Made by a program: the position numbers and the translations under genes. A model generated the notes under the pieces. That model ran no database searches and was not told the origin of the DNA. It saw only the letters and a list, made by a program, of their open reading frames with translations. Shown here one piece after another: positions 20,513-37,009 of a stretch of 64,000 bases of DNA (its first letter is position 1; each line of letters begins with the position of its first letter). Source of the DNA: Candidatus Binatia bacterium (GTDB taxonomy: Bacteria > Desulfobacterota > Binatia > UBA12015); contig JAQWRY010000003.1 of assembly GCA_029243485.1 (NCBI GenBank), forward strand, positions 62,001-126,000, written 5' to 3'.

Positions 20513-20542
20513 TTGACAACGATTCGGTGGGGATTCCATAGT
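20513..20542 (+). promoter_or_regulatory. Candidate sigma-70 promoter for the activator gene
   Basis: TTGACA at 20513-20518 is a perfect -35 box, and CATAGT at 20537-20542 (4 of 6 matches to TATAAT) lies 18 bases away. It overlaps the TTG that opens the longest reading frame of the activator. If the promoter is real, translation must start later, for example at the in-frame GTG 20549 or below. Confidence 0.35.
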
Positions 20543-22045
20543 CGGCTGGTGCGTCCTACTGACCCCTCCCGGGGTGCTCCCGCCGAGAGCGAAGTCCCGA
20601 CCAGCGATCCGTCTACCGCGGAGCAGGCACTGCAATCCAAGCAGTTGCTCGGCGCGGTGATGGAGGCGTCGTACGATGGGATTTGCCTGATCTCGCCCGA
20701 GGGGACTTTCCTGGAAATGAACGGTGCCTTCGAGCGGATTACGGGTGTGAACCGAACGAAGTGGATCGGCCGCACGATCGACGACATGCGCAGCGCGCCG
20801 GGCATGACGCGGAATTCCGCTGCACTTCAGGTGCTCAACGGCTCGTATCCGGCGACGACGCTGGTGAACATCTCGGGGGGCGAGCTGATGCTCGTGACCG
20901 CGAGCCCGCACTTCGGCGAGCGCGGGACGCTGCAGAGCATCATTCTGAACGTCCGGAACATCACGCAACTGAACTACCTGAAGCGCCAACTCGAAGACGA
21001 TCTCGGCGAAGAAGCTCTGGCCGAGGGGCCCTCGGTCGTTCAGGAGCGGCTCACGCGAGCCGGCTTCGAAGACTTCGTCGTGAAGAGCCCCATCATGGAG
21101 GGCATCGTCTCGACGGTCCTCCAGATTGCGGATTTCGACCTCACCGTCCTGGTCGAGGGCGAGACTGGGGTCGGAAAGGGCATTCTCGCGAGCCTGATCC
21201 ATCGCCTGAGTCGTCGCGCGGACAAGCCGTTCATCGAGGTGAACTGCGGGGCCATCCCGGAGTCCCTCGTCGAATCCGAGCTGTTCGGGTACGAGCCGGG
21301 CGCGTTCACCGGGTCGGTGCGCGGCGGCAAGACGGGCTACTTCGAGGCGGCCGAGGGCGGGACGATCTTTCTGGACGAGATCGGCGAATTGCCCAAGGAA
21401 TCCCAGGCGAAGTTGCTCAAGATCCTGGACGACCGGATGCTCACGCGGGTCGGGGGGACCGGCCAGCGGCGCTTGGACGTCCGCGTGATCGCGGCCACGA
21501 ATCGCCGCCTTCGCGACCTGGTTCGCCACGGCCAATTCCGCGCCGACCTCCTGTATCGCCTCGAGACGATTCCACTGGTGGTACCGCCCTTGCGGGACCG
21601 TAAAGAAGACCTGAAGGCGCTGATCCACAGCTTGCTGGAGCGCTACAATCAGGAGTTCAGCACCGACAAGGTCATCGCCTCGGAGGCCGTCCGCCGTCTG
21701 ATGGAAGATCCGCTCCCGGGCAACGCCCGCGAGCTGAAGAACCTCCTGGTCCGCCTCGTTTTGACCTGCCAGGGCAGCGAGATCGGTCTTCGGCACGTCC
21801 GCGAGGTCCTGGACCGGTCTGGGAGCGAGACGCACGGGACCGAGACCCCGTCGCCGGAGGTCCCGGCCGACGCTCCGCCGACGTCGATGAAAGCCCGGAT
21901 CGAGGAGTTCGAGCGGTCGATCCTGGTGGAGTCCTCCCGGCAGTGCCGATCGACTTACGAGGTCGCCGCGCGCCTCGGGATCAACCAGTCGTCGGTCGTT
22001 CGCAAGATGAAGAAGTACGGCATCCCGCCGCCCGCCTCTCATTGA
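20513..22045 (+). CDS. PAS domain-containing sigma-54-dependent activator
   Basis: Up to 510 residues. The PAS sensor is at ~45-150 (MEASYDGICLISPEGTFLEM); the AAA+ sigma-54 interaction domain at ~185-410 has Walker A GETGVGKG (~216), the GAFTGS loop (~262), Walker B IFLDEIGELP (~285) and the sensor/R-finger region FRADLLYRLETIPLVVPPLR; a C-terminal Fis-like helix-turn-helix (YEVAARLGINQSSVVRKMKK) follows. There is no receiver domain, so the PAS probably senses a ligand or cofactor directly. The TTG start is uncertain (GTG 20549 is the alternative). It lies next to a -24/-12 promoter and is the likely activator of the 22-41 kb operon. Confidence 0.9.
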   Translation: MTTIRWGFHSRLVRPTDPSRGAPAESEVPTSDPSTAEQALQSKQLLGAVMEASYDGICLISPEGTFLEMNGAFERITGVNRTKWIGRTIDDMRSAPGMTRNSAALQVLNGSYPATTLVNISGGELMLVTASPHFGERGTLQSIILNVRNITQLNYLKRQLEDDLGEEALAEGPSVVQERLTRAGFEDFVVKSPIMEGIVSTVLQIADFDLTVLVEGETGVGKGILASLIHRLSRRADKPFIEVNCGAIPESLVESELFGYEPGAFTGSVRGGKTGYFEAAEGGTIFLDEIGELPKESQAKLLKILDDRMLTRVGGTGQRRLDVRVIAATNRRLRDLVRHGQFRADLLYRLETIPLVVPPLRDRKEDLKALIHSLLERYNQEFSTDKVIASEAVRRLMEDPLPGNARELKNLLVRLVLTCQGSEIGLRHVREVLDRSGSETHGTETPSPEVPADAPPTSMKARIEEFERSILVESSRQCRSTYEVAARLGINQSSVVRKMKKYGIPPPASH

Positions 22046-22081: not shown

Positions 22082-22129
22082 GCATCGGGCTTCGATGCCG
22101 CGATGCATTGTCGATGCAATTGCGCATCG
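22082..22129. promoter_or_regulatory. Candidate upstream activating sequences (five hexamer copies)
   Basis: GCATCG occurs at 22082-22087 and 22124-22129, and its complement CGATGC at 22093-22098, 22101-22106 and 22112-22117. The first pair is an inverted repeat with a 5-base spacer. Five copies in 48 bases, 50-100 bases upstream of a -24/-12 element and just behind an activator gene, fit enhancer sites for that activator. Binding is inference. Confidence 0.55.
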
Positions 22130-22179
22130 GGCGATCCGCACGTGCCCCCGAGTTCTCGGTGTTTCGAGGCTCGCCGCGC

Positions 22180-22195
22180 TGGCCGGTGGGTTGCT
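22180..22195 (+). promoter_or_regulatory. Sigma-54 promoter (-24/-12)
   Basis: TGGC at 22180-22183, seven bases, then TTGCT at 22191-22195: the invariant GG and GC are exactly ten bases apart, as in the consensus TGGCAC-N5-TTGC. Transcription would start near 22206, leaving an ~80-base leader before the P450 start codon. It is placed between a sigma-54 activator gene and a long co-oriented operon. Confidence 0.7.
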
Positions 22196-22287: not shown

Positions 22288-23562
22288 ATGGCGCAAGACG
22301 GGAAGGACGATCGCACCGCTGAGGCCGAGAAGGCCGGCACTCCGCCGTTCGTGTACGCCCCGATGGGCCCCGAGCAGCTGGCGAACCCGTATCCGACGAT
22401 CGCGCAGGCGCACGCCGAGAAGCCGGTCTTCTTCAGTGAGGCCTTCAGCCTCTGGATCGTCACCCGGTACGAGGACATCTGGACGATCCTGCGGGACACG
22501 GAGCGCTTCACCTCCTCGGCTTCGGTGACGGTTGGGACCGAGACCCCCGACGAAGTGAAGGCAGTCCTCGCCGAGGGCTGGGGCGAGGTAGACACTCTGG
22601 TCACGAACGACCCGCCGGTCCACACCCGTTTTCGCAGCTTGGTGAACAAGGCCTTTACGCCGCGGCGCGTCGCGGGTCGCGAGGAGCACATCCGCGAGCT
22701 GGCGAACAGTCTGGTTGATGCTTTCATCGACGCGGGTCGCGTGGACATCGCGACGGAGTTCGCTGTGCCCCTGCCGCTGACGGTGATCGCGGAGATCCTC
22801 GGTGTGCCGACCGCGGACGTGGCCAAGTTCAAGCAATGGAGCGACGACATCACGGCGCGCCTCATGCCGCTTCCGCTCGAACGGGACATCGAGTGCGCTC
22901 GGAGCCTGGTCGCGTTCCAGCACTACATGAACGCGATGCTCGACGAGCGTGCGAAGAATCCGCACGACGACATGCTGAGCGACCTGCTCACTGCGCGCGC
23001 GGACGGGATGGAACCGCTTTCGCGCGGTGAGATCCTGAGCATGCTCCAGCAGATCCTCGTTGCCGGGAATGAGACCACGACGAGTCTCATTAGCAACATG
23101 GTCGGGATCTACCTCGAGCGGCCCGACGAGTGGCGGGCGCTGGCGGAGGACCCGAGCCTCGTGCCGGACGCGGTCGAAGAGGTTCTGCGCATGGAGTCCC
23201 CGGTGCAGGGGCTCTTTCGGAGCACGAAGGAAGAGCTCGAACTCGGAGGAGTCGTGCTGCCCAAGGGCGCGCATCTCCAGCTCCTGTACGGCGGCGGCAA
23301 TCGCGACGCGAGCGAGTTCCCGAACCCCGACGAGTTCCAGCCGGGACGCAAGAACGGCGCGTCGCACCTCGCGTTCAGCGGCGGTGTGCACTTCTGTCTC
23401 GGCGCGGCGCTCGCGCGGCTCGAAGGGCGGATCGCGCTCGAGACCCTGTCGCAGCGTCTGCCCGGCATTCGCCTCGACCCGGACGGCCCGACCGCGCTGC
23501 GCCCGCATTTCTTTCTGCGCGGCTATGAGCACCTCTCGATCGCCTGGGGGGCGGGCCACTGA
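22288..23562 (+). CDS. Cytochrome P450
   Basis: 424 residues from the ATG at 22288 (MAQDGKDDRTAEAEK), with GGGGGAACGA upstream; longer in-frame starts would overlap the promoter region. Soluble bacterial P450 with I-helix AGNETTTSLISNMV, EEVLRMESPVQGLFR containing the ExxR motif, and haem-binding FSGGVHFCLGAALARLEGR. It would hydroxylate a hydrophobic substrate using electrons from a ferredoxin system not encoded nearby. First gene of the sigma-54 operon, so it may carry out the entry oxidation. Confidence 0.93.
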   Translation: MAQDGKDDRTAEAEKAGTPPFVYAPMGPEQLANPYPTIAQAHAEKPVFFSEAFSLWIVTRYEDIWTILRDTERFTSSASVTVGTETPDEVKAVLAEGWGEVDTLVTNDPPVHTRFRSLVNKAFTPRRVAGREEHIRELANSLVDAFIDAGRVDIATEFAVPLPLTVIAEILGVPTADVAKFKQWSDDITARLMPLPLERDIECARSLVAFQHYMNAMLDERAKNPHDDMLSDLLTARADGMEPLSRGEILSMLQQILVAGNETTTSLISNMVGIYLERPDEWRALAEDPSLVPDAVEEVLRMESPVQGLFRSTKEELELGGVVLPKGAHLQLLYGGGNRDASEFPNPDEFQPGRKNGASHLAFSGGVHFCLGAALARLEGRIALETLSQRLPGIRLDPDGPTALRPHFFLRGYEHLSIAWGAGH

Positions 23563-23588: not shown

Positions 23589-25955
23589 TTGCACGGCGTC
23601 CGCATCGTCGAGTGTGGCGAAGGTGTTTCGGCTCCGTTCTGCACGCGCGTGCTCGCCGATCTGGGCGCCGAAGTCTGGAAGGTCGAACCGGCCGAAGGGG
23701 ATGTCGCACGTACCTGGGGACCGTTCCCCGAGGGCACGATCGACGGCGAAGCCAGTGCGATGTTCGGCTATCTCAACGCTGGCAAGAAGAGCGTGCGTCT
23801 CACGGGCGAGCCCAACGCCGACAACGCGATCGTCTCGAGCCTGACGTCGCACGCCGACGTCTTTGTGACGAACCTGCTGTCGCCCGCGCAGAATCGCTTG
23901 GGTGTCGATATCGATGCCGTCGGTCGCGAGCGCGCGGATCTGATTTCGATTCAGTTGTCGCCCTACGGCGCTTCGGGCCCCTGGGCCGGCATGCCCGGAC
24001 AGGGAATCAACGTGTGTGCAGCTTCGGGGATTAGCGTGATCCTCGGTGAGCCTGGGCGGACGCCTCTGTCGTTTCCGGCGGAGCTCCCCGGCCTGCAGGC
24101 GGGACTCCACGGTGCCGGGGCCGTGCTCGCGGCACTCCTTTCGCGTCTCAAGAGCGGGAACGGCCACTGGATCGACGTCTCCGAAGCCGACGTCCTCGCC
24201 TACTACGCTGGAGGCATGTCGCTCTTCATCCTCGGCAGCGGCGGCGATTGGATGCGGCGCGGCTTCGAACGTCACGGGGGCATCTATCCCTCGGGCTTCT
24301 ATCCCTGCGGCGACGGATTCATCTTTCTCGCTACACAGACGCGCGCGCAGTGGTCGGGCTTCCTCGAGTTAATGGGCGATCCGGAGTGGGCGAAGGCCGA
24401 TCCGGTGTTTCAGGACGGAGTCGCGATCGGCTTTGAACGTGCGGAGGAAGTAGACCTGCACTTCATCCCTTGGCTGCTCGAACACACGAGAGCGGAACTC
24501 GCGGTCATGGCACGCGAGGCCAATCTCGTTCTCGGACCCATCAACGAACCGCCGGACGTACTTGCGAGCAGCCATCTCGAAGAACGTGAGTTCTGGACGA
24601 CGGCGCGGATGGGCGGCGCGGATTTGCGGATCCCCGGAATGGGGTATCGCCTCTCTGAGACGCCGTACTCGCTCGGGCCGATCCCGCGCCTCGGGGAGCA
24701 CGGGGAGATCGCGCCGGTCGACGCTTCGAGCAGCGAGGATGTCCCGGCCGTGCCCGGTCCGCGGCGGACGCGTCCGCTCGCGGGCTACCGCGCGGTCGAG
24801 TTCGGCTTCAACTGGGCGGGTCCGATGGTCGGCCAGATCCTTGCCGACATGGGCATGGAGGTCATCAAGGTCGAGACCGCCGGCCGCCTCGACTTCATGC
24901 GGCATTGGAAGCACGCGCGTCGGTTCTTCCACAACGCGAACCGCAGCAAGTTGTCGGTGTCGGTCGACGTGAAGAAGCCGGAGGGCCGCGAGTTGGTACT
25001 CTCGCTCGTCCGGGAGTCTGATCTAGTCTTCGACAACTTCGCAGCGGGCGTGATGGAGCGTCTGCGGCTCGGGTACGACGATCTGCGCGGAGTGAAGCAG
25101 GACATCATCGGTCTCTCGATGGCGATGGCCGGACAGACCGGTCCCCTGCGCCACCTGCGCGGGTTCGCGACAATCGCGACCGGATTCGCCGGGATCGAGA
25201 ACGCGATCGGGTACGCCGAGACCGGGCCCACCGGCTTGCCGGTCATCGGCCTCGGGGATGCGAACGCGGCAATTCAAGGGGTCGTGTCTGCGCTCGCAGC
25301 ACTTCATCATCGCGAACGCACGGGCCAGGGGCAGGCCATTGATCTCTCGCAGATCGAAGCGGCGACGACGCTGTCGGGAGCGCTGCTCGCGCGACATCAG
25401 TTCGACCCGTCGGCATCCACGCGGCCGCAGGGGAATCAGCACGACCGGATGGTGCCGCACGGCATCTACCCGACATCGGGCGACGATCGCTGGATCTCTC
25501 TGGCGGTGGACTCCGACGAGGAGTGGGTCGCGTTGGTCGGTGCTCTCGAAGCCCCCTCCTGGGCGATGGACGCCACACTGGCTACAGCCGAAGGTCGTCG
25601 CACAAGGCGTTCGGAGATCGACGAGCAGTTGGCCGCGTGGACCGCGGGCCACGAGCGGGACGCCTTGGTCGAGCGACTCGCGGTGGTCGGACTCGCTGTC
25701 GCGCCGGTTCTCGGCATCGAAGAACTGACGACCTGGCCGCAGTTCGCGGCGCGCGGACTCGTCGAGGAGTTGCCGAGCTTCGAAGGCGAGCGGGAGACCG
25801 TCTACCGGACGCCCTGGCACCTCAGCGAAACGCCGGACGCCCTGACGGGACCTTCTCCCCGCGTCGGTGAGCACAACGAATACGTCTTCAAGGAGGTCCT
25901 CGGTCTCGGTTCCGATCGAGTCGAGGAGCTCGTCGCCCAAGAGGTGATCCATTGA
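23589..25955 (+). CDS. Double-domain CaiB/BaiF CoA-transferase
   Basis: 788 residues, about twice a class III CoA-transferase (~400). Domain 1 (1-~390) begins LHGVRIVECGEGVSAPFCTR with VLADLGAEVWKVE, and has GHWIDVSEADVLAYY around the catalytic Asp; domain 2 (~400-788) begins GYRAVEFGFNWAGPMVGQIL with VIKVETAG, and has GQAIDLSQIEAATTL. Both halves keep the Asp, so both may be active, or one may act as a pseudo-subunit of the interlocked dimer. It transfers CoA between carboxylic acids. Starts at TTG 23589, 26 bases after the P450; its stop overlaps the next start. Confidence 0.88.
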   Translation: MHGVRIVECGEGVSAPFCTRVLADLGAEVWKVEPAEGDVARTWGPFPEGTIDGEASAMFGYLNAGKKSVRLTGEPNADNAIVSSLTSHADVFVTNLLSPAQNRLGVDIDAVGRERADLISIQLSPYGASGPWAGMPGQGINVCAASGISVILGEPGRTPLSFPAELPGLQAGLHGAGAVLAALLSRLKSGNGHWIDVSEADVLAYYAGGMSLFILGSGGDWMRRGFERHGGIYPSGFYPCGDGFIFLATQTRAQWSGFLELMGDPEWAKADPVFQDGVAIGFERAEEVDLHFIPWLLEHTRAELAVMAREANLVLGPINEPPDVLASSHLEEREFWTTARMGGADLRIPGMGYRLSETPYSLGPIPRLGEHGEIAPVDASSSEDVPAVPGPRRTRPLAGYRAVEFGFNWAGPMVGQILADMGMEVIKVETAGRLDFMRHWKHARRFFHNANRSKLSVSVDVKKPEGRELVLSLVRESDLVFDNFAAGVMERLRLGYDDLRGVKQDIIGLSMAMAGQTGPLRHLRGFATIATGFAGIENAIGYAETGPTGLPVIGLGDANAAIQGVVSALAALHHRERTGQGQAIDLSQIEAATTLSGALLARHQFDPSASTRPQGNQHDRMVPHGIYPTSGDDRWISLAVDSDEEWVALVGALEAPSWAMDATLATAEGRRTRRSEIDEQLAAWTAGHERDALVERLAVVGLAVAPVLGIEELTTWPQFAARGLVEELPSFEGERETVYRTPWHLSETPDALTGPSPRVGEHNEYVFKEVLGLGSDRVEELVAQEVIH

Positions 25956-27613
25956 CCGCGTTCCCGCAGTTCTCGCCTGAATATCGCGAACGGTTCGTCT
26001 CGCAGGAGCTGTGGCTCGACCGAACCCTGCACGACTATTTCGCCGAAGCCGTCGAGAAGGCGCCGGATCAGGTGGCGCTCATCGAAGGCGATCGTCGCGT
26101 CACGTTCTCACAGTGGGATGCGATGGCCGAGCGCGCCGCCGCGGGTCTCACGAGGCTCGGCCTCGGCAAGGGCGACATCGTGACCGTCCAGTTGCCGAAC
26201 TGGATTGAGATGTGTGTCTCACAGATCGCCTTGTCGCGCATCGGTGCTGTCATTCAGCCGATGCACACGGTCTATCGCGAGCGCGAGATGGCATCGATGC
26301 TCGAGTTCTGTAACTCCCGCGCGATCCTGCTGCCGCAAGAGTACGCCGGTTTTGCCCACGCGGATGCGGCCGTGGCGCTGCAGCCGGAGCTGCCCCAGTT
26401 GGACCATGTCGTCGTCGTGCGCGGCGAGGCGTCGGGGGCGTTATCGTGGGACGAGCTTCTCGCGAGCACGGACGGTCTGGCCGCCCACGAGAAGGCTCAT
26501 CCGGTCCACGCGGACGACGTCTTCTATCTGAACTTCACGTCCGGCACCGAAGGTGCGCCGAAAGGCTTCCTGCATACGCACAACACGATGCTGTCGGTTT
26601 TGAAGCGCTTCGCCGACATGCAGACCGAAGCCGACCCGTCTTCAAAGAACGACGTACTGCTGGCGAATAGTCCGATGACGCACTCGTTCGGCCATCTGAG
26701 CACCTACCAGCTGCTCCTGCGGCAGGTGCGGATGGTTCTGGTCGAGAGGTTCTCACCGTCCCAGACGTTGCGTTTGATCGCGGACGAGCGGGTCTCGTCG
26801 ATCTCCGGCACGCCTGCTCATCTCATTAGCATTCTGCATCACGCGGACTTCGAGAAGACGGACACCAGCTGCATCAACAGCGTCGGCGTCGGCGGTTCGC
26901 AATGCCCGCCGCAACTGATGGCGGACATCGAGAAGCACTTCGGCGTGCGCGTGGGGAACATGTACGGGATGGGCGAGAACATCCTGCACACCCGAACGAT
27001 GCCGACCGACTCGCACGAGATCATCCGCGAGACCGTCGGGATGCCGGTGCCCGGCGCCGAGTTGAAGATCTTCGCCGCGGATCACGCTCGCGAGCAGCCT
27101 CAGGGCGAGGTCGGCGAGATCGCCTTCCGAGGCCCCACGCTATTCCTCGGCTACTACCGAAATCCGGAGCGGACGGCGGAGACCCGGAACGACGACGGGT
27201 GGTTCTTCACTGGCGACCTCGGGTTCGTCGACGAGCGCGGCTACCTCCACATGGCGGGCCGCAAGAAGGAACAGATCAATCGGGGCGGAACAAAGATCTT
27301 CCCCAAGGAAATCGAGGACCTCCTGCACTCGCATCCGAGTGTTCAGAAGGCCGCCGTCGTCGGCATGCCGGACTATCGGCTCGGCGAGCGCGTCTGCGCC
27401 TATCTCGAACTCGAGAGGGACTCGGCCGTAACGCTGGACGAGCTCCGGGAGTTCCTCACGTCGAAGCAAGTCATGAAGCACAAGATCCCCGAGCGGCTGG
27501 AGATCGTCAGCGAGCTGCCGCAAACCCCGACTGGGAAGATCCAGAAGGGTCCTCTGGTCGAGGACATCAAAGCGAAGCTCGAGGCCGAAGCCGGCTCGGC
27601 GGAAGGAGGATGA
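25952..27613 (+). CDS. AMP-dependent acyl-CoA synthetase
   Basis: 553 residues. ANL-superfamily motifs in order: A3 NFTSGTEGAPKGFLHTHN (~190), A5 YGMGENIL (~345), the A7/A8 region GWFFTGDLGFVDERGYLHM then GRKKEQINRGGTKIFPKEIE (~430), and A10 PQTPTGKIQK (~525). Activates a carboxylic acid to its CoA thioester with ATP. The TTG start shares bases with the CoA-transferase stop (TTGA), so it is translationally coupled. The presence of both a ligase and a CoA-transferase suggests two acids or two stages of activation. Confidence 0.92.
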   Translation: MTAFPQFSPEYRERFVSQELWLDRTLHDYFAEAVEKAPDQVALIEGDRRVTFSQWDAMAERAAAGLTRLGLGKGDIVTVQLPNWIEMCVSQIALSRIGAVIQPMHTVYREREMASMLEFCNSRAILLPQEYAGFAHADAAVALQPELPQLDHVVVVRGEASGALSWDELLASTDGLAAHEKAHPVHADDVFYLNFTSGTEGAPKGFLHTHNTMLSVLKRFADMQTEADPSSKNDVLLANSPMTHSFGHLSTYQLLLRQVRMVLVERFSPSQTLRLIADERVSSISGTPAHLISILHHADFEKTDTSCINSVGVGGSQCPPQLMADIEKHFGVRVGNMYGMGENILHTRTMPTDSHEIIRETVGMPVPGAELKIFAADHAREQPQGEVGEIAFRGPTLFLGYYRNPERTAETRNDDGWFFTGDLGFVDERGYLHMAGRKKEQINRGGTKIFPKEIEDLLHSHPSVQKAAVVGMPDYRLGERVCAYLELERDSAVTLDELREFLTSKQVMKHKIPERLEIVSELPQTPTGKIQKGPLVEDIKAKLEAEAGSAEGG

Positions 27614-28761
27614 GTTTGTCGTTCGGAAAAATCACCGACGAGGGCGTCGAGAAGCTACGTTCCCGCATCGGCGTGGAGCGCAAGGGCTCGACAATGCATC
27701 GCCGTGGACCGCTCAAGCTCAGTGGCGAGACCATAAACCGGTTCGCGCTGGGTTGTGGCGATGACAATCCGGTGTACATCGATCGCGAGTACGCCGAGTC
27801 GACTCGGCACGGCGCGCGGATCGCGCCGGCAAGCATCAGCGGTTACATGGAGCGCTCGAATGGCGCTTCGGATGGTTTCCCGGGCTGCCACACGATCTGG
27901 CGCGACGCGAAATACGAGTGGAACCGCTCGATGCGTGAGGGCGACGTCCTCGACTCGAGTAGCTACCTGCGCAAGGTCGAGATCATCCCGAGCAAGTTCG
28001 GCGGTGGGCGCGCGGCGGTCATGGACTACGAGACCGAGATCGTGGACGCGGAGGGCGAGCCTCTCGGACGGTACGATACCTCGTGGCACCGGTTTGAGCG
28101 TTCGAGCGCGAAGAAGGCGAGCACGCTCAAGAAGCGCGAACTCCCGATGTACACGCCCGACGACATCGAGCGCATCAAGGGCGACTATCGCAAGGAGAAA
28201 CGTCGCGGCGCCGACACGCTCCACTGGGAAGAGGTCCAACTCGAGGAGGAGATCCCCTTTGTCGTGAAGGGACCCACGACCCAGATCAGCAAGTTCGCCT
28301 TCGAGAGCTGGCAGGGCGCGAGCGGTTGGTTCGTCGGACACAAGTTCGCGTTCGACATGTTCGACAAGCATCCGGGTCTACCGTTCATCAACGAGCAGGG
28401 GATCCCGGAGGCGCCGGTCGCGATTCACTGGTCGAACGAGCGCTCCCAAAAGATCCTCGGTCTCCCGGGCGCCTACGAAGCCGGCTACGAGCGCACCAGC
28501 TGGATCGTCCACATGCTCCAGAACTGGATGGGCGACGACGGACACCTCTACACGCTCACGCAGAAGTACCCGACGTTCAATTTGCTCGGGGACACGAGCT
28601 GGTGCCATGGCACGGTGAGGGAGAAGTTCCTCCTCGACGAGCCCGTGGACGGCAAGCGCCACGCCGTACGGTGCGACATCTGGTCGATCAATCAGCGCGG
28701 GGACATCACGACGACCGGTCAGGCCGTCGTTCTGCTCCCGGGCGCCGACGGAAACCCCTGA
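27610..28761 (+). CDS. MaoC-like / FAS1-type dehydratase, double hotdog
   Basis: 383 residues from ATG 27610, which overlaps the ligase stop (ATGA) and has GGAAGGAGG directly upstream. The N-terminal hotdog has the hydratase signature ALGCGDDNPVYIDREYAEST and a FAS1-type dehydratase region (RHGARIAPASISGYME); the C-terminal half carries a second, more divergent hotdog with a substrate pocket (GGASGWFVGHKF-like region). Members hydrate enoyl-CoA or dehydrate 3-hydroxyacyl-CoA. Its length suits a fused, self-sufficient hydratase for bulky acyl-CoAs. Confidence 0.82.
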   Translation: MSLSFGKITDEGVEKLRSRIGVERKGSTMHRRGPLKLSGETINRFALGCGDDNPVYIDREYAESTRHGARIAPASISGYMERSNGASDGFPGCHTIWRDAKYEWNRSMREGDVLDSSSYLRKVEIIPSKFGGGRAAVMDYETEIVDAEGEPLGRYDTSWHRFERSSAKKASTLKKRELPMYTPDDIERIKGDYRKEKRRGADTLHWEEVQLEEEIPFVVKGPTTQISKFAFESWQGASGWFVGHKFAFDMFDKHPGLPFINEQGIPEAPVAIHWSNERSQKILGLPGAYEAGYERTSWIVHMLQNWMGDDGHLYTLTQKYPTFNLLGDTSWCHGTVREKFLLDEPVDGKRHAVRCDIWSINQRGDITTTGQAVVLLPGADGNP

Positions 28762-28773
28762 GGAGGCCCAGCC

Positions 28774-29553
28774 ATGCGACCCGAAGTTCTCGATCAGCTC
28801 TTCTCTCTTCGCGGCAAGGTGGCGATTGTCACCGGCGCCGGTTCGGGAATCGGGTGTGGCATTGCGATGCGTTTGGCGGAACTCGGCGCGGACGTCGCGG
28901 TTGCAGACCTGGACCTGGCGCAGGCCGAGCGCGTGACGGGACTCGTGAAAGACGCGGGTGCAAAGGGGCTTGCAATCCAGGGTGACGTCTCGGTCGAGGC
29001 CGACGTGGCCACGATGGTGGATGGGACCGTGGCGGAGCTCGGCGCAGTGGACATCCTGGTGAACAACGCTGGGATATATCCGACGAACCCGATCGCGGAG
29101 ATGCCGGTCGAGGAGTGGGACCGGGTCTTCGCCGTGAACGTCCGCGGCGCGATGCTTTGCACGCGCGAGGCGACGCGCGCGATGCGGAAAGCCGGCAAGG
29201 GTGGGTCGATCGTGAACATTTCTTCGATCGAGTCCATGCACCCGACGTTCGTCGGCCTTGGCCACTACGCGGCGTCAAAGGGCGCCGTCAACATGATGAC
29301 CAAGTCCGCCGCGCTCGAGTTCGCGCCGGACAATATCACCGTGAACGCAGTCTGCCCCGGCGGCATCGAGACCGAGGGGACGCAGGAAGCATTCGGTGAC
29401 GGCTTGAAGGAGCAGCTCGAGGAGCGCATTCCCCTCCACCGCGTCGGGCGACCGGAGGAGATCGGCGGCGTGGTCGCATTCCTGGCCAGCGCAGCCGGCT
29501 CGTACATTACCGGCGCCACGCTGGTCGTGGACGGCGGCTACCTCATCACCTGA
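28774..29553 (+). CDS. SDR family oxidoreductase
   Basis: 259 residues, strong Shine-Dalgarno (GAGGAGGCC). Classical SDR: TGAGSGIGCG, ADLDLAQAE (Asp after strand 2, favours NAD), NNAGIYP, Ser in NISSIESMHP, YAASKGAVN and the C-terminal GSYITGATLVVDGGYLI typical of FabG-like enzymes. Probably oxidises a hydroxyacyl-CoA or ring alcohol of the operon's substrate. Related to the SDR at 33248 (both contain NNAGIYP and GSYITG), suggesting paralogous steps. Confidence 0.9.
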   Translation: MRPEVLDQLFSLRGKVAIVTGAGSGIGCGIAMRLAELGADVAVADLDLAQAERVTGLVKDAGAKGLAIQGDVSVEADVATMVDGTVAELGAVDILVNNAGIYPTNPIAEMPVEEWDRVFAVNVRGAMLCTREATRAMRKAGKGGSIVNISSIESMHPTFVGLGHYAASKGAVNMMTKSAALEFAPDNITVNAVCPGGIETEGTQEAFGDGLKEQLEERIPLHRVGRPEEIGGVVAFLASAAGSYITGATLVVDGGYLIT

Positions 29554-29570
29554 GACGGAGGAGCAGCGAC

Positions 29571-30116
29571 ATGAGTGAAGACAAGGACAAGGCGTACTGG
29601 ATCGAAGAGCAGCAGCTCGCGATGATCGACCCCGACCTCGTGGACAAGTGGGGCGACCCGAACAAGCATCCGGAGACGCAGCTTTCGAAGGACGAGCAGC
29701 AGGAGCTCCTCGTTGCGGGGCGCGAGATGTTCGTCACGCATCTCACGAAAGTCGGCTTTCCGATGGTCACGGTGCACGTCTACTGCCTGATCGACGGTGA
29801 GGTCTGGAGCACGAGTGTGAACGGGCGCGTGAAGGCAAGCGCGTTCCGCCGCGACGCTCGCACCGGCCTGTGCATTTCGTCGAACGGACTTGGCCTGCCG
29901 TTCGGTGGCGGCATGACCATCAAGGCCAAGGCCGAAGTCATCGAGGACCGCGCGATCGTAGAGAAGGTCTGCATCGAGCACGGCAAGCGGTACTACTCGA
30001 GCCCGAAGGCGCAGGGGCTCTTCACGGGATCGCTCTTCACCCCCAACCGAATCGCTCTCAAGTTCGACATTGAGAAGATCGTGAGTTGGAAGAACATCGG
30101 GATGAAGTCGGAGTAG
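29571..30116 (+). CDS. Pyridoxamine 5-phosphate oxidase-like split-barrel protein
   Basis: 181 residues; GGAGGAG precedes the ATG. After a helical N-terminal lead (residues 1-55) the sequence has the split-barrel pattern of FMN/F420-binding PPOX-like proteins: PMVTVHVYCLIDGEVWSTSV, KASAFRRDARTGLCISSNGL, AKAEVIEDRAIVEKV and NRIALKFDIEKIVSW. The assignment rests on this fold pattern only. In catabolic clusters such proteins act as flavin reductases or F420/FMN oxidoreductases. Packed between an SDR and the ene-reductase. A second PPOX-like gene lies at 35063. Confidence 0.65.
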   Translation: MSEDKDKAYWIEEQQLAMIDPDLVDKWGDPNKHPETQLSKDEQQELLVAGREMFVTHLTKVGFPMVTVHVYCLIDGEVWSTSVNGRVKASAFRRDARTGLCISSNGLGLPFGGGMTIKAKAEVIEDRAIVEKVCIEHGKRYYSSPKAQGLFTGSLFTPNRIALKFDIEKIVSWKNIGMKSE

Positions 30117-30120
30117 TTCT

Positions 30121-32064
30121 TTGACCGCTGTCGACCACCTGTTCCGTCCCATCCAGATCGGTCCCATGCGGGTGCCGAACCGGATCGTAGAGACGACCTA
30201 CTCGATCAATTCGGGTCGGGCGGACGGACTCCCGGATGCGCCTTTCATCGAGCATCACGTTCGGAGGGCGCGTGGGGGGGCGGGGTGGATCGGGAACGAG
30301 ACGTGGCTTCTGCCAACGCCGCTGCCCCCGGGCCGGGCGGATGAGATTCTGCCAGGCACCGGGGCGGTAGCGTTCGCAGTGTACGAGCACCCGGAATTCG
30401 TGTCTCGTGTGCGCGCGTTCACGGATGCAGTGCATGAACACGGGGCCGTGGCTGTGATGCAGCTGACGCATCTGCAGTCGCTGATGTGTCCGTCGCCGGC
30501 GTCCATGACGCTCAACATGGACACGATCCCGCACGCGCTCGAAGAGGATGAGATCGAGTGGATCCTCGAGACGTACGCGATCGCGGCGGAGCGGTTTCGT
30601 GACGCTGGGGCCGATGCGGTCGAGATTCACTGTGCGCACGAGGCGCTGCCGCAGTGGTTCCTCTCGCCCACCACGAATCAGCGCACGGACCGGTGGGGCG
30701 GGTCGGAAGAGAACCGGATTCGCTTCGTCGTCGAGGCGGTTCGGGGCGTGCGTGCCCGCGTCGGTTCGGACCTTGCCGTGGGACTTCGGATCTGTGCCGA
30801 CGAGTATCGCGACGACGGATACGATCTCGAAGACATGAAGAGAATGGCGGCTGCGATCTGCGCCGCCTGCGAGATCGACTACCTGAGCGTCGACGTCGGC
30901 TCGACGTACGGCCGACCGAGCTACATCTCTCCGGTGCACGTTCCGGTCGCAGGCTTTGCGTCGCATGCGGCGGCGATTCGCGAGGCGGTTGCGGTTCCGG
31001 TGCTCTACGCCGGTCGGGTGAACGATCCGGAGGTGGCGGCCGACCTCCTCGTGCGAGACCAGGTCGACCTCGTCGGGATGACGCGAGCGCTCATCGCGGA
31101 TCCCGAGATGCCGCGTAAGGTCCGCGAAGGGCGTACCGCCGAGGTACGGAAGTGCATCGGCTGTAATACCTGTATCGGCAAGGTCGTCCACGCGGAGGTG
31201 AAGACCCCGTTGTGCTCCGTGAATCCCATGGTCGGTCACGAGCTCGAATGGAACGACGAACCCGCGGCGACTCTGAAGCGGGTCTGGGTGATCGGCGGCG
31301 GCCCCGCCGGCCTCGAGGCCGCCCGCGTTGCGGCGACGCGAGGCCACCGCGTGACGTTGGTCGAAGCGGCCGAAGAACTTGGCGGGATGATGCGCCTCGC
31401 GGCGTCGACCCCCGGGCGCGCCGCCTTTCTGGACTTCCCCGATTTCCTCGCGGGGGCGCTTCGTCGGCTCGACGTCGACGTCCGCTGCGCAAGGCGCGTG
31501 TCCTGCGAGGATGTGCTCGCAGACCGACCCGACGTCGTCATCGTCGCGACCGGCGCCACGCCGCGCCGCGCGAGCTTCTCCGGTCCGAACGTGGTCGACT
31601 TCGCAGAGGTGCTCTCGGGCGACGTGCCGGTAGGTGACCATGTCGTGATCGCATCAGAGGACGATCACATGATCACCCCCGGCGTGGCCGACCATCTCGC
31701 TTCCCACAACAAGCGCGTGGAGATCGTGCAGAAGTGGCTGATGCCCGGTTCGCAGATCGACCGCTACACGCAGGGCGAGATCTTCCATCGCCTCTACGCC
31801 GGCGGGGTCGTCATCCATCCCTCGACGCGTGCCCACTCCTTCGAAGGCGGGCGCGTCGGGACGCGGAACGCGCACACCGGGGTCGAGGGAACGATCGACG
31901 ACGTCGACACTCTCGTTCTGAGCCTTGGCGCACAGAGCGAGGACTCGCTTTATCGCGAGCTCAAAGGCAAGGTCCCCGAGCTCTATCTAGTCGGTTCGGC
32001 GTTCGCGCCGCGACAGATTGCCGACGCAACGCAGCACGGTGCCAGTGTGGCGCGCCTGATTTGA
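30121..32064 (+). CDS. Fe-S flavoenzyme, 2,4-dienoyl-CoA reductase/BaiCD-like
   Basis: 647 residues. The N-terminal OYE-type FMN barrel begins LFRPIQIGPMRVPNRIVETT; a four-Cys [4Fe-4S] site is in CIGCNTCIGK plus the later Cys in KTPLCSVNPMVG (~340-365); the C-terminal FAD/NAD(P) domain starts VWVIGGGPAGLEAARVAA (~380) with LVEAAEELGGMM. This is the domain order of 2,4-dienoyl-CoA reductase, trimethylamine dehydrogenase and the bile-acid enzymes BaiCD/BaiH. It would reduce (or oxidise) a conjugated C=C in a CoA thioester or enone. TTG start, only 4 bases after the preceding stop. Confidence 0.88.
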   Translation: MTAVDHLFRPIQIGPMRVPNRIVETTYSINSGRADGLPDAPFIEHHVRRARGGAGWIGNETWLLPTPLPPGRADEILPGTGAVAFAVYEHPEFVSRVRAFTDAVHEHGAVAVMQLTHLQSLMCPSPASMTLNMDTIPHALEEDEIEWILETYAIAAERFRDAGADAVEIHCAHEALPQWFLSPTTNQRTDRWGGSEENRIRFVVEAVRGVRARVGSDLAVGLRICADEYRDDGYDLEDMKRMAAAICAACEIDYLSVDVGSTYGRPSYISPVHVPVAGFASHAAAIREAVAVPVLYAGRVNDPEVAADLLVRDQVDLVGMTRALIADPEMPRKVREGRTAEVRKCIGCNTCIGKVVHAEVKTPLCSVNPMVGHELEWNDEPAATLKRVWVIGGGPAGLEAARVAATRGHRVTLVEAAEELGGMMRLAASTPGRAAFLDFPDFLAGALRRLDVDVRCARRVSCEDVLADRPDVVIVATGATPRRASFSGPNVVDFAEVLSGDVPVGDHVVIASEDDHMITPGVADHLASHNKRVEIVQKWLMPGSQIDRYTQGEIFHRLYAGGVVIHPSTRAHSFEGGRVGTRNAHTGVEGTIDDVDTLVLSLGAQSEDSLYRELKGKVPELYLVGSAFAPRQIADATQHGASVARLI

Positions 32065-33251
32065 ACGATACGATGGATCTCAACGACTCCACAGAAGACG
32101 CAGTGTTCCGCGCGGAGCTCCGTGCCTGGTTCGAGCAGAACCTCGCCGAAGTGGGACGACTTCCGTCCGATCCGGCGGCGGCGGTCGATCACTCGCGCGC
32201 GTGGCAGCGGCGTTTGTGCGAGGCGGGATACGTTGGACTCGCCTGGCCGAAGGACTGCGGCGGCCGTGAGGCATCGCCAACGCAGCAGGTGATCTTCGCC
32301 GAGGAGGGGGCGCGCGCCGGTGCGCCGGCCCTTATCAATACGATCGCGATCAACATCCTCGGCCCCGCTCTGATCCAACACGGTAGTGAGGAACAGAAGC
32401 AGCACTATCTGCCCCGGATCCTGCGCGCGGAGGACATCTGGTGTCAGGGATTCTCGGAACCGGGTGCCGGCTCCGATCTGGCCTCGCTCCGCACGCGCGC
32501 GGTCGTCGATGGCGACGCGCTCGTCGTGAACGGCCAGAAAGTCTGGACGAGTCTCGGTCCGATCGCCGACTGGTGCTTCCTGTTGGTGCGCACCGGCGAG
32601 GAGCCGATCGGTCAGGGCGGGATCACCTACGTGCTGATGGACATGCGCAGCGAAGGCGTGCGCATTCAGCCCATCCGGCAGATCACGGGGAAGAGTCACT
32701 TCAGCGAGATTTTCCTGGAAGACGTCCGCATCCCGCGCGCGAACATCGTGGGTGAGATGGACGCGGGTTGGGCGGTGGCCCGGTCGACACTCTCGGCGGA
32801 ACGCAGCGGCCTGTCCGGCGTCGTAGAGCTAGAGCGGTCGCTCGGTCGACTGCGGGACCTCGCCGAACAGCGCGACCGACTCGACGATCCGGTCGTCCGC
32901 CAACAGTTGGCCAAGCTTTACATTCAGAAGCAGGCGCTCAAGTACACGGGCTACCGGGTTCTCACGAAGCAGCTCCGAGGAGCGGCGCTCGGCCCGGAGT
33001 CCTCGATCGGCAAGCTCGCCGCGTCGGAGTTCCGACGCGGCATCATGGACACCGCTCTGGATCTACAGGGTCCGTACGCGACGATCGGCCGCGGTAATCC
33101 GCAAGCGCTCGACCGCGGGCGTTGGCAGGGTCTGTACCTCGACGCACGCGCCTACACGATCGGCGGCGGCACTTCGGAGATCATGCGGAACATCATTGCG
33201 GAACGGGCCTTGGGCCTTCCCAAGTCGGTTCCAGCAGGAGGCACTCGATGA
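32061..33251 (+). CDS. Acyl-CoA dehydrogenase family protein
   Basis: 396 residues from TTG 32061 (overlapping the previous stop as TTGA); ATG 32073 is an alternative. Motifs: GYVGLAWPKDCGGREASPTQ, FSEPGAGSDLASLRTRA, NGQKVWTSLGPIADWCF, RIPRANIVGEMDAGWAVARS and the C-terminal AYTIGGGTSEIMRNIIAERALGLPK. Similar to the acyl-CoA dehydrogenases of steroid and terpenoid side-chain/ring degradation, which often act on bulky CoA esters. Only one ACAD gene is in this operon; heteromeric types need two, so a homomeric enzyme is more likely. Confidence 0.9.
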   Translation: MNDTMDLNDSTEDAVFRAELRAWFEQNLAEVGRLPSDPAAAVDHSRAWQRRLCEAGYVGLAWPKDCGGREASPTQQVIFAEEGARAGAPALINTIAINILGPALIQHGSEEQKQHYLPRILRAEDIWCQGFSEPGAGSDLASLRTRAVVDGDALVVNGQKVWTSLGPIADWCFLLVRTGEEPIGQGGITYVLMDMRSEGVRIQPIRQITGKSHFSEIFLEDVRIPRANIVGEMDAGWAVARSTLSAERSGLSGVVELERSLGRLRDLAEQRDRLDDPVVRQQLAKLYIQKQALKYTGYRVLTKQLRGAALGPESSIGKLAASEFRRGIMDTALDLQGPYATIGRGNPQALDRGRWQGLYLDARAYTIGGGTSEIMRNIIAERALGLPKSVPAGGTR

Positions 33252-34027
33252 CGACGGCTTTAGAACGACGGTTTTCCCTCGCGGGGAAGGTTGCGATGGT
33301 TTCCGGCGCAGGCCAAGGAATTGGACGTGGGATCGCTCTATGTCTGGCGGAGGCGGGCGCGGCGGTAGCCGTGCAGGACTTGTCCGCGGAATCCGCGAAC
33401 ACGGTCGCAGAAGAGATCAAGGCGCTTGGTGGCCGGGCCGCTTCGGTCGGCGGTGACATGAGCAAGGTCGAGTCGATCGACGCGTGGCTTGAGGTCGCGC
33501 AGAAGGAACTCGGGGTTCCCGAGATCCTGGTGAACAACGCGGGCATCTACCCGTTCGCGAGCTTCCTCGAACTGCAGCTCGAAGAGTGGGACAGAGTCCT
33601 CGCGTTGAACCTGCGCTCGGCGTTCGTCGCGACTCAGAAGGTCGGACAGGCGATGGCCGACGGCGGTAAAGGCGGCCGGATCGTGAACATCGCATCGATT
33701 CAGGGCCTGCGGCCTTCGGGCCCCGGCGTCGCCGCTTACAACATGAGCAAGGCGGGCGTGATCATGCTGACGAAGTCCGCGGCGCTGGAGCTGGCGGAGT
33801 ACGGCGTCGGCGTGAATGCGATTGCCCCGGGTATTGTCGCGACTCCAGGAACGAAAGAGATCATCGACACCAACCAACTCGGCGACCCGAAGGACCTCGT
33901 GCCTCTCGGCGGCCGTTGGGCGAGCACGGACGACGTCGCGAACGCCGTCCTCTACCTCTCGAGCCCGGCCGGCTCGTACATCACCGGCGAGACCATCGTG
34001 GTCGATGGCGGCTACCTGCTGAAGTGA
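33248..34027 (+). CDS. SDR family oxidoreductase
   Basis: 259 residues from ATG 33248 (ATGA overlap with the dehydrogenase stop; GGAG upstream in AGCAGGAGGC). Carries SGAGQGIGRG, NNAGIYP, Ser in NIASIQGLRP, YNMSK, and GSYITGETIVVDGGYLL at the end. FabG-like oxidoreductase, paralogous to the SDR at 28774. Probably oxidises a secondary alcohol made in the pathway. Confidence 0.9.
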   Translation: MTTALERRFSLAGKVAMVSGAGQGIGRGIALCLAEAGAAVAVQDLSAESANTVAEEIKALGGRAASVGGDMSKVESIDAWLEVAQKELGVPEILVNNAGIYPFASFLELQLEEWDRVLALNLRSAFVATQKVGQAMADGGKGGRIVNIASIQGLRPSGPGVAAYNMSKAGVIMLTKSAALELAEYGVGVNAIAPGIVATPGTKEIIDTNQLGDPKDLVPLGGRWASTDDVANAVLYLSSPAGSYITGETIVVDGGYLLK

Positions 34028-34051
34028 ACGGTACTTGGAGAATTTAAGCGA

Positions 34052-35041
34052 ATGGTGAACCCAGAAGACGAATACCGACACGCCTGTCCCCAGGAGATCC
34101 AGCATCTGCTCTGGGGCGACACCCTCTGGGTCAGCGTCGTCGACCGCGAAGCCAACATTTTCGGCATCAATCACTTCCACCTGACGAACAAGGGATACGC
34201 TCGTTACGAAGCGCTCTACATCATCGACGGTGTGATGCAGCTCTGGGGGAACAAGGTTCCCCTCGGCGTCGAAGTCGATCAGGGCCCGTGGACCGACGGT
34301 CGCCTCTCCTACGAGGTCATCAAGCCGCACGAAGAGATCCGGATCCAGTTCGATGGTCCGTGCTTCGGTTTCGACCAGACGTTCCGCGGCCGCTTCCCGA
34401 TCTTCGACTACCACGACAGTGTGAACGGGAACCCGCTCGGCCGCTTCCACAATTACGGTGGACACTTCGAGCAGGCGATGCACTGCACCGGCGATTTCGA
34501 GATTCGCGGCGGCCCTTGTAAAGGCGAGACCCGGAAACTCGACAGCTGGTCGCACCGCGATCATTCCTGGTCGACACGCTTCGCAGACCAGCTGCCCTGG
34601 GAGCCCGAGCACGGCGACTACCCGTCGCACTTCTGGCCTTCCATCCAGCTGGAGGACAAGCACATCAACGCCTTCGGCATCATGCAACTCGGCGGCATGG
34701 GCCTGCCCGAGGGCGAGAAGCCGGTGGGGGGGTTCTGCTCGACGAAGGATGGTTCGCGTCCGATCCTCGGCGCGACCGCGGAGATCCTCACCGAAGAGAA
34801 TCGTCGGGATGCGGCAGCCTTCCGCTACGAGATCACGATGCCGGACGGCGAGGTCATTCACGTCCGGACCGGCCGCAAGCACGGCCAGGTGAAGCTCTGG
34901 GATCGCGGCGAGAACGACCTCGAGAACCGTTTTGATTGTTACGAGCCGTTCTTCGACTTCGAAGTCGAAGAGACCGGCGAGCGCGGCTACGGCGTGGCCG
35001 AGTACTCGATCCAGCCGGTTAGTCCGCGCTGGATGGCCTGA
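34052..35041 (+). CDS. DUF7065/DUF7064-type protein (copy 1), CrtC/AttH-like fold inferred
   Basis: 329 residues; GGAG upstream. Begins MVNPEDEYRHACP, has WVSVVDREANIFGINHFHLT, FNYHDSVNGNPLGRF-like middle, CTGDFEIRGGP, the strongly conserved SHRDHSWSTRF, and VIHVRTGRKHGQ near the end. The layout is that of the DUF7065 plus DUF7064 family, reminiscent of lipocalin-like hydroxyneurosporene synthase (CrtC/AttH) proteins. Function unknown; no cofactor motif. The His/Asp-rich HRDHSW box could be a catalytic or binding site. A paralogue follows at 38624. Confidence 0.75.
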   Translation: MVNPEDEYRHACPQEIQHLLWGDTLWVSVVDREANIFGINHFHLTNKGYARYEALYIIDGVMQLWGNKVPLGVEVDQGPWTDGRLSYEVIKPHEEIRIQFDGPCFGFDQTFRGRFPIFDYHDSVNGNPLGRFHNYGGHFEQAMHCTGDFEIRGGPCKGETRKLDSWSHRDHSWSTRFADQLPWEPEHGDYPSHFWPSIQLEDKHINAFGIMQLGGMGLPEGEKPVGGFCSTKDGSRPILGATAEILTEENRRDAAAFRYEITMPDGEVIHVRTGRKHGQVKLWDRGENDLENRFDCYEPFFDFEVEETGERGYGVAEYSIQPVSPRWMA

Positions 35042-35062
35042 CGCGGAGACAAGGAGAGCATC

Positions 35063-35521
35063 ATGGCAGAGCAGGAAGCCTGGGAAGATCTCAACTTCTT
35101 TCGGATGGAAGATGCCGACGCGTGGAAAGTCATCGAGGAGGCGCCGGGCAGCGTGGTCACGTTCGCTCGGAAGGACGGTCACACGATTGGGGTGTGGGTC
35201 TCCCACGCCGTGATCGACGACGTCCTCTACGTCACGACGACCGCGAACCGCCCGAAGACGCGTGCGTGGGAACGGGATCCGCGCATGTCGGCCTGCTTCG
35301 CCGTGCCGGGGCTTGGTTCCGTGACGGTCGTCGGCCGCGTCGAACTCGGAGAGCAGCCGGAGCTCCGTCGTAAGTTCCTCGAGGCTCTGTGCGATCGGCT
35401 CGAGATCGCAGCAGACGCGCGCGAGTCGTGGATCAGCAAGATGGACACCGACGGCCGTGTGATCGGGAAGGTCGAAGTCGAGAAGCTGATCACGTTCGAC
35501 GAGCGCAAGCTGGAGTTCTGA
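35063..35521 (+). CDS. PPOX-class FMN/F420-dependent protein
   Basis: 152 residues; AAGGAGAG upstream. Typical short pyridoxamine-phosphate-oxidase-like split barrel: GSVVTFARKDGHTIGVWVSH, DVLYVTTTANRPKTRAWERD, RMSACFAVPGLGSVTVVGRV. May bind FMN or F420 and reduce a quinone-like or unsaturated intermediate, or serve as a flavin reductase. Short gaps (21 and 18 bases) to both neighbours keep it in the operon. Confidence 0.8.
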   Translation: MAEQEAWEDLNFFRMEDADAWKVIEEAPGSVVTFARKDGHTIGVWVSHAVIDDVLYVTTTANRPKTRAWERDPRMSACFAVPGLGSVTVVGRVELGEQPELRRKFLEALCDRLEIAADARESWISKMDTDGRVIGKVEVEKLITFDERKLEF

Positions 35522-35539
35522 CGCGAAGGCGGTGAGACA

Positions 35540-36517
35540 ATGAGCGATATGAGACAGGCACTGGCCCGCTTCATCGCGGAGAAGACCGACGGGCCCGCGG
35601 AAGTCCACGAGCTCTCGCGGATCTCCGGCGGGTTCTCGTACGAGACGTGGAGTGCGCGCGCGAAGTGGCGCGGCGGTGAGGGGCATCTGGTCGTTCGGCG
35701 GGAGCCGCGGGGCGGCGTGCTCGAGCCGTACGATGCGTCGAAAGAGTTCCGCATTCTGCGGGCGCTGGAGGCGACTCGTGTGCCCGTGCCGAAGGCCCTA
35801 TGGCTCGAGGACACCGGCGAGGTGCTCGGGACGCGGTTCTACATCATGGAGTTCGTCGAGGGGGAGATCCCGCTCCCGTGGGACGAGTCCATTCCGAATG
35901 ATGTCCGGCAGGAGATGCATCGCCAGTTCACCGACATGCTGGCGGCGATGCACACCCTCGACTGGAAGGCCCTCGGCCTCGACTTTCTCGGCGTGCCGAC
36001 GGACGCGATGGATCCGGGAGCCCTCGAACTCGAGCGCTGTCGCGAGATCCTCGATCGCGTCGAGCTCCGACCCTACCCGCTTCTTCGCGAGATCCTGGCC
36101 TGGCTCGACGAGCGGCGTCCGAAGTCCCCGATGCTCTCGCTGATTCACAACGATTTTCGGATGGGAAACTTCGTGTGGCGCGACGGCAAGATCGTCACGC
36201 TTCTCGATTGGGAGCGCGCGTTCATCGGCGACCCCATGGTGGATGTCGCCTTCTCCCGACTCGAGAACCTGGCCGGCTGGTGCAGCATCACGGATGGGAT
36301 GGCGAAGCGGTACACCGAGAAGTCCGGCATCGCGATCGATGAGGAGCGGGTGTCCTTCTACGAGACCCTCGAGCAGCTGAAGGCGACGCTGGTCGGGCTC
36401 ACGGGTTTGCGCGCCTTCGCCGATGGCCGGACGTCCGACCTCAGGCTGGTTCAGATCGGCGCGTTCGGAGAGCAAGCCGTTCCGTCCTTGGCCAAGGCGA
36501 TTGGAGTGGGGTCATGA
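35540..36517 (+). CDS. Phosphotransferase family protein (APH-like kinase)
   Basis: 325 residues, APH/choline-kinase fold. The catalytic loop is LIHNDFRMGNFVWRDGKI (HxDxxxxN, ~205) with DFG-equivalent LLDWERAFIGDP; the N-lobe has HLVVRREPRGG (ATP Lys region replaced by Arg-rich strand). APH-like proteins next to acyl-CoA dehydrogenases are homologous to the ACAD10/ACAD11 kinase domain, which phosphorylates 4-hydroxyacyl-CoAs. That reaction is a plausible role here but is inference. Its stop overlaps the next start (ATGA). Confidence 0.85.
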   Translation: MSDMRQALARFIAEKTDGPAEVHELSRISGGFSYETWSARAKWRGGEGHLVVRREPRGGVLEPYDASKEFRILRALEATRVPVPKALWLEDTGEVLGTRFYIMEFVEGEIPLPWDESIPNDVRQEMHRQFTDMLAAMHTLDWKALGLDFLGVPTDAMDPGALELERCREILDRVELRPYPLLREILAWLDERRPKSPMLSLIHNDFRMGNFVWRDGKIVTLLDWERAFIGDPMVDVAFSRLENLAGWCSITDGMAKRYTEKSGIAIDEERVSFYETLEQLKATLVGLTGLRAFADGRTSDLRLVQIGAFGEQAVPSLAKAIGVGS

Positions 36518-36978
36518 CGGCGCGCACGCTTCCGACGCAGACGTTGATCGAAGGAATGGCGCGATGTGTGCGCGAGACGATCCTTCCGGCTTTGGAGGAT
36601 CCGAGCGCGCAGACGCAGGCTGAAGTGCTTGCGGCGCTGTTGGATGGTCTACCGGCAGCGATCTCGGCCGAGACGAACGATGCTGTTCGGGCCGATAGTG
36701 ACGCGGCTCGGACTCTCCTTACGGAGCTGGGTGGTTCGGCTCCACGTCCGCCGGCGCCCCAGGCTGTGCTCGGGGAGCTTCTGGCCGAGAATCACGCGCT
36801 TCATGGCGCGCTGCTCGGGCTCGCCACGCGGGCCCGGGCTGACGGCGACGGGGAGCGGCTGCGGTCACTCCAGCAGTACTTCCTGGCGAGTGCTCGTACC
36901 GAGCACGCGCCTACCGAGCAGGCGACGGACTTCGCATCGCTCAGCTCTCAAGAGGACTCGGCGCGTCGCGGCGATTGA
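36514..36978 (+). CDS. Hypothetical protein behind the APH-like kinase
   Basis: 154 residues, mostly helical: MARCVRETILPALEDPSAQT, a charged central part, AENHALHGALLGLATRARAD. The tail is acidic/polar (TEQATDFASLSSQEDSARRGD). Not recognised. Translationally coupled to the kinase (ATGA), so the two products probably work together, perhaps as a small helical partner or adaptor. Note the absence of Cys except one near the N-terminus, and no signal peptide. Confidence 0.6.
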   Translation: MTARTLPTQTLIEGMARCVRETILPALEDPSAQTQAEVLAALLDGLPAAISAETNDAVRADSDAARTLLTELGGSAPRPPAPQAVLGELLAENHALHGALLGLATRARADGDGERLRSLQQYFLASARTEHAPTEQATDFASLSSQEDSARRGD

Positions 36979-37009
36979 GCCGAGAGCGTAGAGAGACGCA
37001 ACGGAGAAG

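Follow-up and report, generated by a model that had tools for sequence, protein, structure and literature searches.

Genes and promoter elements in the window

The window, a 64,000-nt stretch of one contig of a Candidatus Binatia bacterium, carries on its forward strand a gene for a sigma-54 activator, a short intergenic region with repeated hexamers and a -24/-12 element, and a long run of genes that opens with a cytochrome P450. The features discussed below are the following.

20513..20542, + strand: sigma-70-type promoter, TTGACA-N18-CATAGT, ending 6 nt before the GTG of the activator gene; equivalents in eight of nine genomes, that of the window included
20549..22045, + strand: sigma-54 activator of 498 aa with PAS, AAA+ (GAFTGS loop) and TyrR-type HTH_50 domains; start taken as GTG 20549
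22082..22087, + strand: extra GCATCG half-site, at the same offset only in the same-genus genome G001
22093..22110, + strand: UAS dyad A, CGATGC-CGCGAT-GCATTG, an 18-bp inverted repeat with an N6 spacer; equivalents in 7/7 genomes
22112..22129, + strand: UAS dyad B, CGATGC-AATTGC-GCATCG, a perfect 6-N6-6 dyad starting 19 nt after the start of dyad A; equivalents in 7/7 genomes
22180..22195, + strand: sigma-54 -24/-12 element TGGCCGGTGGGTTGCT, of the form TGG...TTGC, 52-55 nt past the dyad core in 7/7 genomes
22206, + strand: predicted transcription start, 12 nt past the -12 C
22288..23562, + strand: cytochrome P450 (Pfam p450; ATG 22288, open frame to 23559), first gene of the target operon
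23589..41341, + strand: remainder of the predicted operon, described by gene families
41388..43997, + strand: TonB-dependent receptor, 46 nt past the preceding gene and possibly the end of the operon

The same-strand run comprises 19 genes, the TonB-dependent receptor being the last, separated by -4 to 47 nt when the chosen starts are used. The 19 kb originally given for the operon agrees with the 19.1 kb measured to 41341, and becomes 21.7 kb when the receptor gene, ending at 43997, is included. Between 23589 and 41341 lie genes for a two-domain family III CoA-transferase, an acyl-CoA ligase, a FAS1-type dehydratase, SDRs, a PNPOx-like protein, an OYE-type reductase, an acyl-CoA dehydrogenase, an APH-like protein, an ADH, a glyoxalase-like protein and an amidohydrolase, as well as genes without a clear family; the order from the P450 to SDR2 is kept in genome G068. 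Such a gene set would suit an aerobic pathway that degrades a hydrophobic and perhaps cyclic compound.

Within the -24/-12 element, the sequence read directly places GG at 22181-22182 and GC at 22193-22194 with ten bases in between, so that the exact GG-N10-GC spacing claimed for 22180-22195 holds; TGG at -24 and TTGC at -12, both features of sigma-54 promoters, are also present. The element lies 93-108 nt before the P450 ATG, the far end of the predicted interval (85-108 bases) being right and its near end moving to 93. By a crude consensus score it tops all GG-N10-GC sites of the window (14/16); however, sites of that score are expected by chance at a mean of 2.7 per 64 kb (Markov-1, 30 simulations, both strands), and the element alone was therefore discarded as evidence. 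Its weight comes from its position and conservation, not from its own score. The genome contains a single rpoN match (PF04552 at contig C63, E 6.5e-65), and the predicted start at 22206 was placed by a spacing rule that we take to be 12 nt after the -12 C.

Upstream of the element, GCATCG/CGATGC occurs in five exact copies, at 22082, 22093, 22101, 22112 and 22124 (span 22082-22129); no other non-overlapping hexamer is clustered as densely anywhere in the window. The five copies in 48 bases reported at the outset are real, as the maximum per 48 bases in 200 simulated windows was two (180 windows) or three (20 windows). GCATCG is enriched window-wide, with 126 occurrences observed against 78 expected, and single-hexamer counts therefore carry less weight. 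This excess, together with the non-significance of the -24/-12 element by itself, is what might suggest a chance cluster of a common hexamer beside a chance GG-N10-GC, an explanation that is nevertheless extremely improbable, given that a cluster of five arose in none of the 200 simulations, that no tandem core scoring at least 15/16 appeared in 1.2 Mb of simulated sequence, and that the combination is conserved in other genomes.

Conservation of the tandem dyads before the P450 gene

At E <= 1e-100, 11 of 193 genomes have a relative of the activator and 17 of 148 a homologue of the P450; seven genomes (G000, G001, G010, G031, G051, G068 and G073) have both. In all seven, a tandem core matching at 15-16 of 16 positions precedes the P450 together with a TGG...TTGC element, at core-to-element distances of 52, 52, 52, 53, 54, 55 and 55 nt. 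By contrast, the site is found at none of 11 P450 loci in ten genomes without an activator match, absence here meaning no match at E 1e-100, by which a more diverged activator could be missed. The best tandem at these loci reaches 12/16, and no element scoring at least 13 lies within 120 nt of the listed candidates (best <= 12). Around five of the activator-less loci (G003, G021, one of those in G053, G082 and G017), 12-15 kb of sequence held no tandem of at least 13 with a promoter. Upstream sequence was short at one negative locus (G103, 158 nt) and one positive locus (G073, 357 nt). Genome G003, although of the window's own genus, has neither an activator match nor the site. The corresponding Fisher value of 5e-5 overstates independence, since the seven genomes represent three genera (g1, g4 and g23) rather than seven independent events. 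Similarly, the invariance of GG and GC, and in one run of TT, is partly built in, as the element search required them; when TT was scored and not required, TTGC still occurred in the best element of 7/7 promoters.

A search upstream of orthologous operons had been named as a check on the hexamers, and its outcome favours the tandem dyads with the -24/-12 element (7/7, vs 0/11 without an activator match), at near-fixed spacing to the promoter, but not the exact hexamers, which number from one (G051) to six (G031) at the sites of the other six genomes. The exact hexamer cluster was discarded as the conserved unit on account of the single copy in G051. The copies at 22082 and 22101, the latter overlapping the spacer and right arm of dyad A, recur at the same offset in one of the six other genomes (G001, of the same genus), and the right half of dyad A itself, GCATTG (22105-22110), is not among the five exact hexamers. 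Thus, the 'hexamer array' of the original prediction exists as a cluster, but what is conserved is a pair of tandem 18-bp dyads, that is, ATGC-N6-GCAT twice. All 14 dyads of the seven genomes have ATG in the left core and GCAT in the right core; 13 of them also keep the C that follows ATG, and the spacer has a near-random composition at five of its six positions, with C or T at the remaining one. From the start of one dyad to that of the next is 19, 20 or 21 nt, which would put both on about the same face of the helix; the gap between them is 5-6 nt except in G010, where it is 7, one or two bases wider.

Many dimeric regulators could use inverted repeats of such a length, and the dyads might accordingly serve an unrelated regulator, such as a repressor, and lie by chance near a sigma-54 promoter. 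This is very unlikely, however, for the distance to the -24/-12 element stays at 52-55 nt across three genera, the tandem dyads are about two helical turns apart, and they are missing where the activator is missing.

The location of the activator gene relative to the site varies. In G031 the activator is encoded about 12.5 kb from the P450 and in G010 on a different contig, and in both genomes the UAS-promoter region remains before the P450. G010 also has another P450 (34% identical; L114:7653-8762), divergently oriented beside the activator gene, the closer P450 homologue being on the other contig. The positions in G031 and G010 bear on whether most transcripts of the operon arise by read-through, starting at the activator's own sigma-70-type promoter, with the sigma-54 promoter as a booster only. 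In the window, the activator and P450 genes are on the same strand, 242 nt apart; the sole same-strand terminator-like site in 20380-22400 overlaps the -24/-12 element itself, and the count of such sites is near background (two on both strands, vs a mean of 1.0 in shuffles). All of this would accommodate read-through, yet the retention of the UAS-promoter with the P450 when the genes are distant or on separate contigs makes it an improbable main route. Where the activator orthologue is kept and no P450 match is present, in G015 and G092, there is no tandem site, nor was one with a promoter found near the activator genes; these orthologues, G015:C10 (L119) and G092:C78 (L118), are at 54% and 64%, respectively.

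Genome-wide searches used the tandem pattern because the single dyad CGATGC-N6-GCATCG, rejected as a definition of the regulon, is too common, occurring in 135 of 193 genomes and, with two mismatches, at 1323 places per strand in the window's own genome. With a gap of 4-7, the tandem core was found in 10 of 148 genomes, six of the matches being P450 promoters; the own genome has a single exact tandem site, the P450 promoter of G068 fell outside the search by one mismatch, and a reversed control pattern matched two genomes, G031 and G051. The matches in the other four genomes (G118, G122, G132 and G137) are inside open frames, the longest being 265, 657, 136 and 364 codons, respectively, have no element of at least 13 at 30-80 nt, and are probably due to chance. 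They are located at G118:C126:4110, G122:C102:30575, G132:C115:1741-1808 and G137:C252:5597, and none of the four genomes has an activator match; G132 has three, which overlap in the manner of a short repeat.

When one mismatch was allowed, at a gap of 5 or 6 in 11 chosen genomes, the only extra places were on G000:C72 and G001:C297, the control pattern giving one match, in G003. These second tandem dyads (G000:C72:42897-42930, or L211:8898-8931, and G001:C297:19601-19634, or L212:8602-8635) both lie between a gene for a luciferase-like monooxygenase and a divergently oriented operon that encodes subunits E1-alpha and E1-beta of a 2-oxoacid (pyruvate-type) dehydrogenase. A TTGC-bearing element faces the E1 operon 40-41 nt past the core, a spacing shorter by about one helical turn than that at the P450, with GGG or AGG in place of TGG at -24; equal-scoring elements exist on the opposite strand too, and only the E1-facing one is common in place to both genomes. 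Neither site nor activator match is present in G002, where the E1 neighbourhood is kept, or in G003, where it is rearranged, and G010 encodes both the activator and E1-alpha but has no site there. Of nine E1-alpha loci, in 7 of the 14 genomes searched, two have the site. The E1-alpha operon was therefore discarded as a general target, G010 and others being without the site; from the sequences, it is a probable lineage-specific added target in G000 and G001 only.

The activator and comparable regulators

The neighbouring gene was originally read as a sigma-54 activator with a PAS domain and an intact GAFTGS loop, and PAS, the AAA+ sigma-54 interaction domain (PF00158, E 6.3e-63) and GAFTGS are all found in its product; the loop is GAFTGA in the G010 orthologue. 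The C-terminal HTH matches HTH_50 at 36.0 bits (cut-off 27). An AlphaFold model (mean pLDDT 76.5, pTM 0.54) is in line with PAS, AAA+ and HTH_50, its best matches among solved structures being NtrC1-type AAA+ domains. The protein thus has the AAA+ domain, GAFTGA-type loop and C-terminal HTH of a bacterial enhancer-binding protein, along with conserved upstream sites. Its start was moved from TTG 20513 to GTG 20549 because of the conserved promoter position, the discarded TTG sitting in the -35 itself: in eight of the nine genomes examined (not G015), a TTGAC(A/T)-N18-CATAGT-like sequence is followed, 6-8 nt past its end, by an ATG or GTG. This arrangement suggests that the activator mRNA is leaderless and made from a sigma-70-type promoter close before the start codon.

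Sigma-54 activators act in trans, and 25 further places in the genome match this one, mostly over the AAA+ region and some of them fragments; promoter and UAS could thus be real and the dyads be bound by another of these proteins. We consider this unlikely, as the site co-occurs with the neighbouring activator and the HTH of the latter is of the TyrR type, whereas 13 of 14 scanned paralogues have a Fis-type HTH_8 and in one (L017) no HTH was called. L020, which is among the 13, had an additional HTH_50 match below the cut-off; besides the 14 scanned, there are five further paralogue loci (L012, L013, L014, L016 and L021) and six weaker matches to which no locus is assigned. With HTH_50 in the neighbour and HTH_8 in nearly all of the scanned paralogues, the neighbour would be the obvious protein to recognize a TyrR-box-like operator of 6-N6-6 layout. 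Among the loci listed in the contig scan, at least 80 in number and outside the counts given here, no close orthologue of the activator was present, the first 12 listed being 33-39% identical.

TyrR of Escherichia coli, which works with sigma-70, offers a direct comparison. It matches HTH_50 at 71.1 bits and also matches PAS (L223), and is 37% identical to the activator over AAA+ and HTH (120 of 323 columns), with a gap in the alignment where the GAFTGA loop, intact in the activator, is located. The N-terminus of TyrR is ACT-like (E 1.2e-5; 25.4 bits, just below the cut-off of 27), whereas the activator has no ACT match at E 0.001. According to PMC4894688, the E. coli TyrR box is TGTAAA-N6-TTTACA; the 14 dyads share its 6-N6-6 layout but have a CGATGC-like half-site instead of TGTAAA. 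GcsR of Pseudomonas aeruginosa was classed as TyrR-like on > 40% identity to TyrR, a ground on which the activator, at 37%, falls short. We do not assign the activator to the TyrR-like group proper, the ACT domain, the TGTAAA half-site and 40% identity all being absent.

GcsR and its gcs2 operon (PMC4894688) are the closest worked example: a TyrR-like protein acts from tandem 18-bp palindromes upstream of an RpoN promoter on a catabolic operon. The TyrR-type enhancer-binding protein, the tandem 18-bp palindromes, the RpoN-type promoter and the catabolic operon are all shared with the present locus. Unlike the three copies of TGTAACG-N4-CGTTCCG recognized by GcsR, for which glycine is the inducer, here there are two copies of a CGATGC-N6-GCATCG-like sequence before a P450 operon (PMC4894688). 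In the sigma-54 regulons reconstructed in Clostridiales (PMC6615313), a UAS, often in multiple copies per operon, accompanies a -24/-12 element and each activator has one or few target operons, traits that also apply to the present site; however, those activators carry a Fis-type HTH (PF02954) and their UAS are mostly 100-250 bp from the promoter, as opposed to HTH_50 and about 50-90 bp here. A literature search that included excerpts of PMC4894688, PMC6615313 and PMC4641369 found no description of this operator or of the operon's control, which does not exclude one in print.

A predicted sigma-54 switch for the P450 operon

Taken together, the locus is very likely a sigma-54-dependent enhancer-promoter through which the neighbouring activator, on the tandem dyads, would drive the P450 operon. 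The site architecture, its conservation, the co-occurrence with the activator, the domains of the activator and rpoN in the genome are the observations behind this reading, and the conservation contrast of 7/7 vs 0/11 supports the enhancer-promoter-activator set that had been proposed before a catabolic operon. From these we infer binding, looping, ring assembly, the start site and an inducer. Apparently made from a leaderless mRNA that starts at its sigma-70-type promoter, the PAS-AAA+-HTH activator would bind as dimers to the dyads at 22093-22110 and 22112-22129, whose centres lie some 104 and 85 bp upstream of the predicted start and hence 19 bp, nearly two helical turns, apart. Upon reception of a signal by the PAS domain, the AAA+ domains would assemble into a ring that contacts sigma-54 RNA polymerase at 22180-22195 via the GAFTGS loop, and the promoter would be opened for transcription of the P450 catabolic operon.

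More tentatively, the protein and its relatives may form a separate branch of sigma-54 activators, combining a DNA-binding domain and operator layout of the TyrR type with a new half-site (GATGC), an intact GAFTGA-type loop, a PAS sensor for a substrate of the P450 pathway, a leaderless mRNA of their own and, in one genus, a recruited E1 operon. In kind, the switch is a known one, with a mechanism as in known enhancer-binding proteins, and, on sequence grounds, it is very probably real. Its significance would lie in giving a large and uncharacterised P450 operon a single regulator, a defined operator of 18 bp and a predicted start site, which would make the inducer and the pathway testable with a reporter; the relatives that have the P450 without the activator, and also without the site, provide a natural control.
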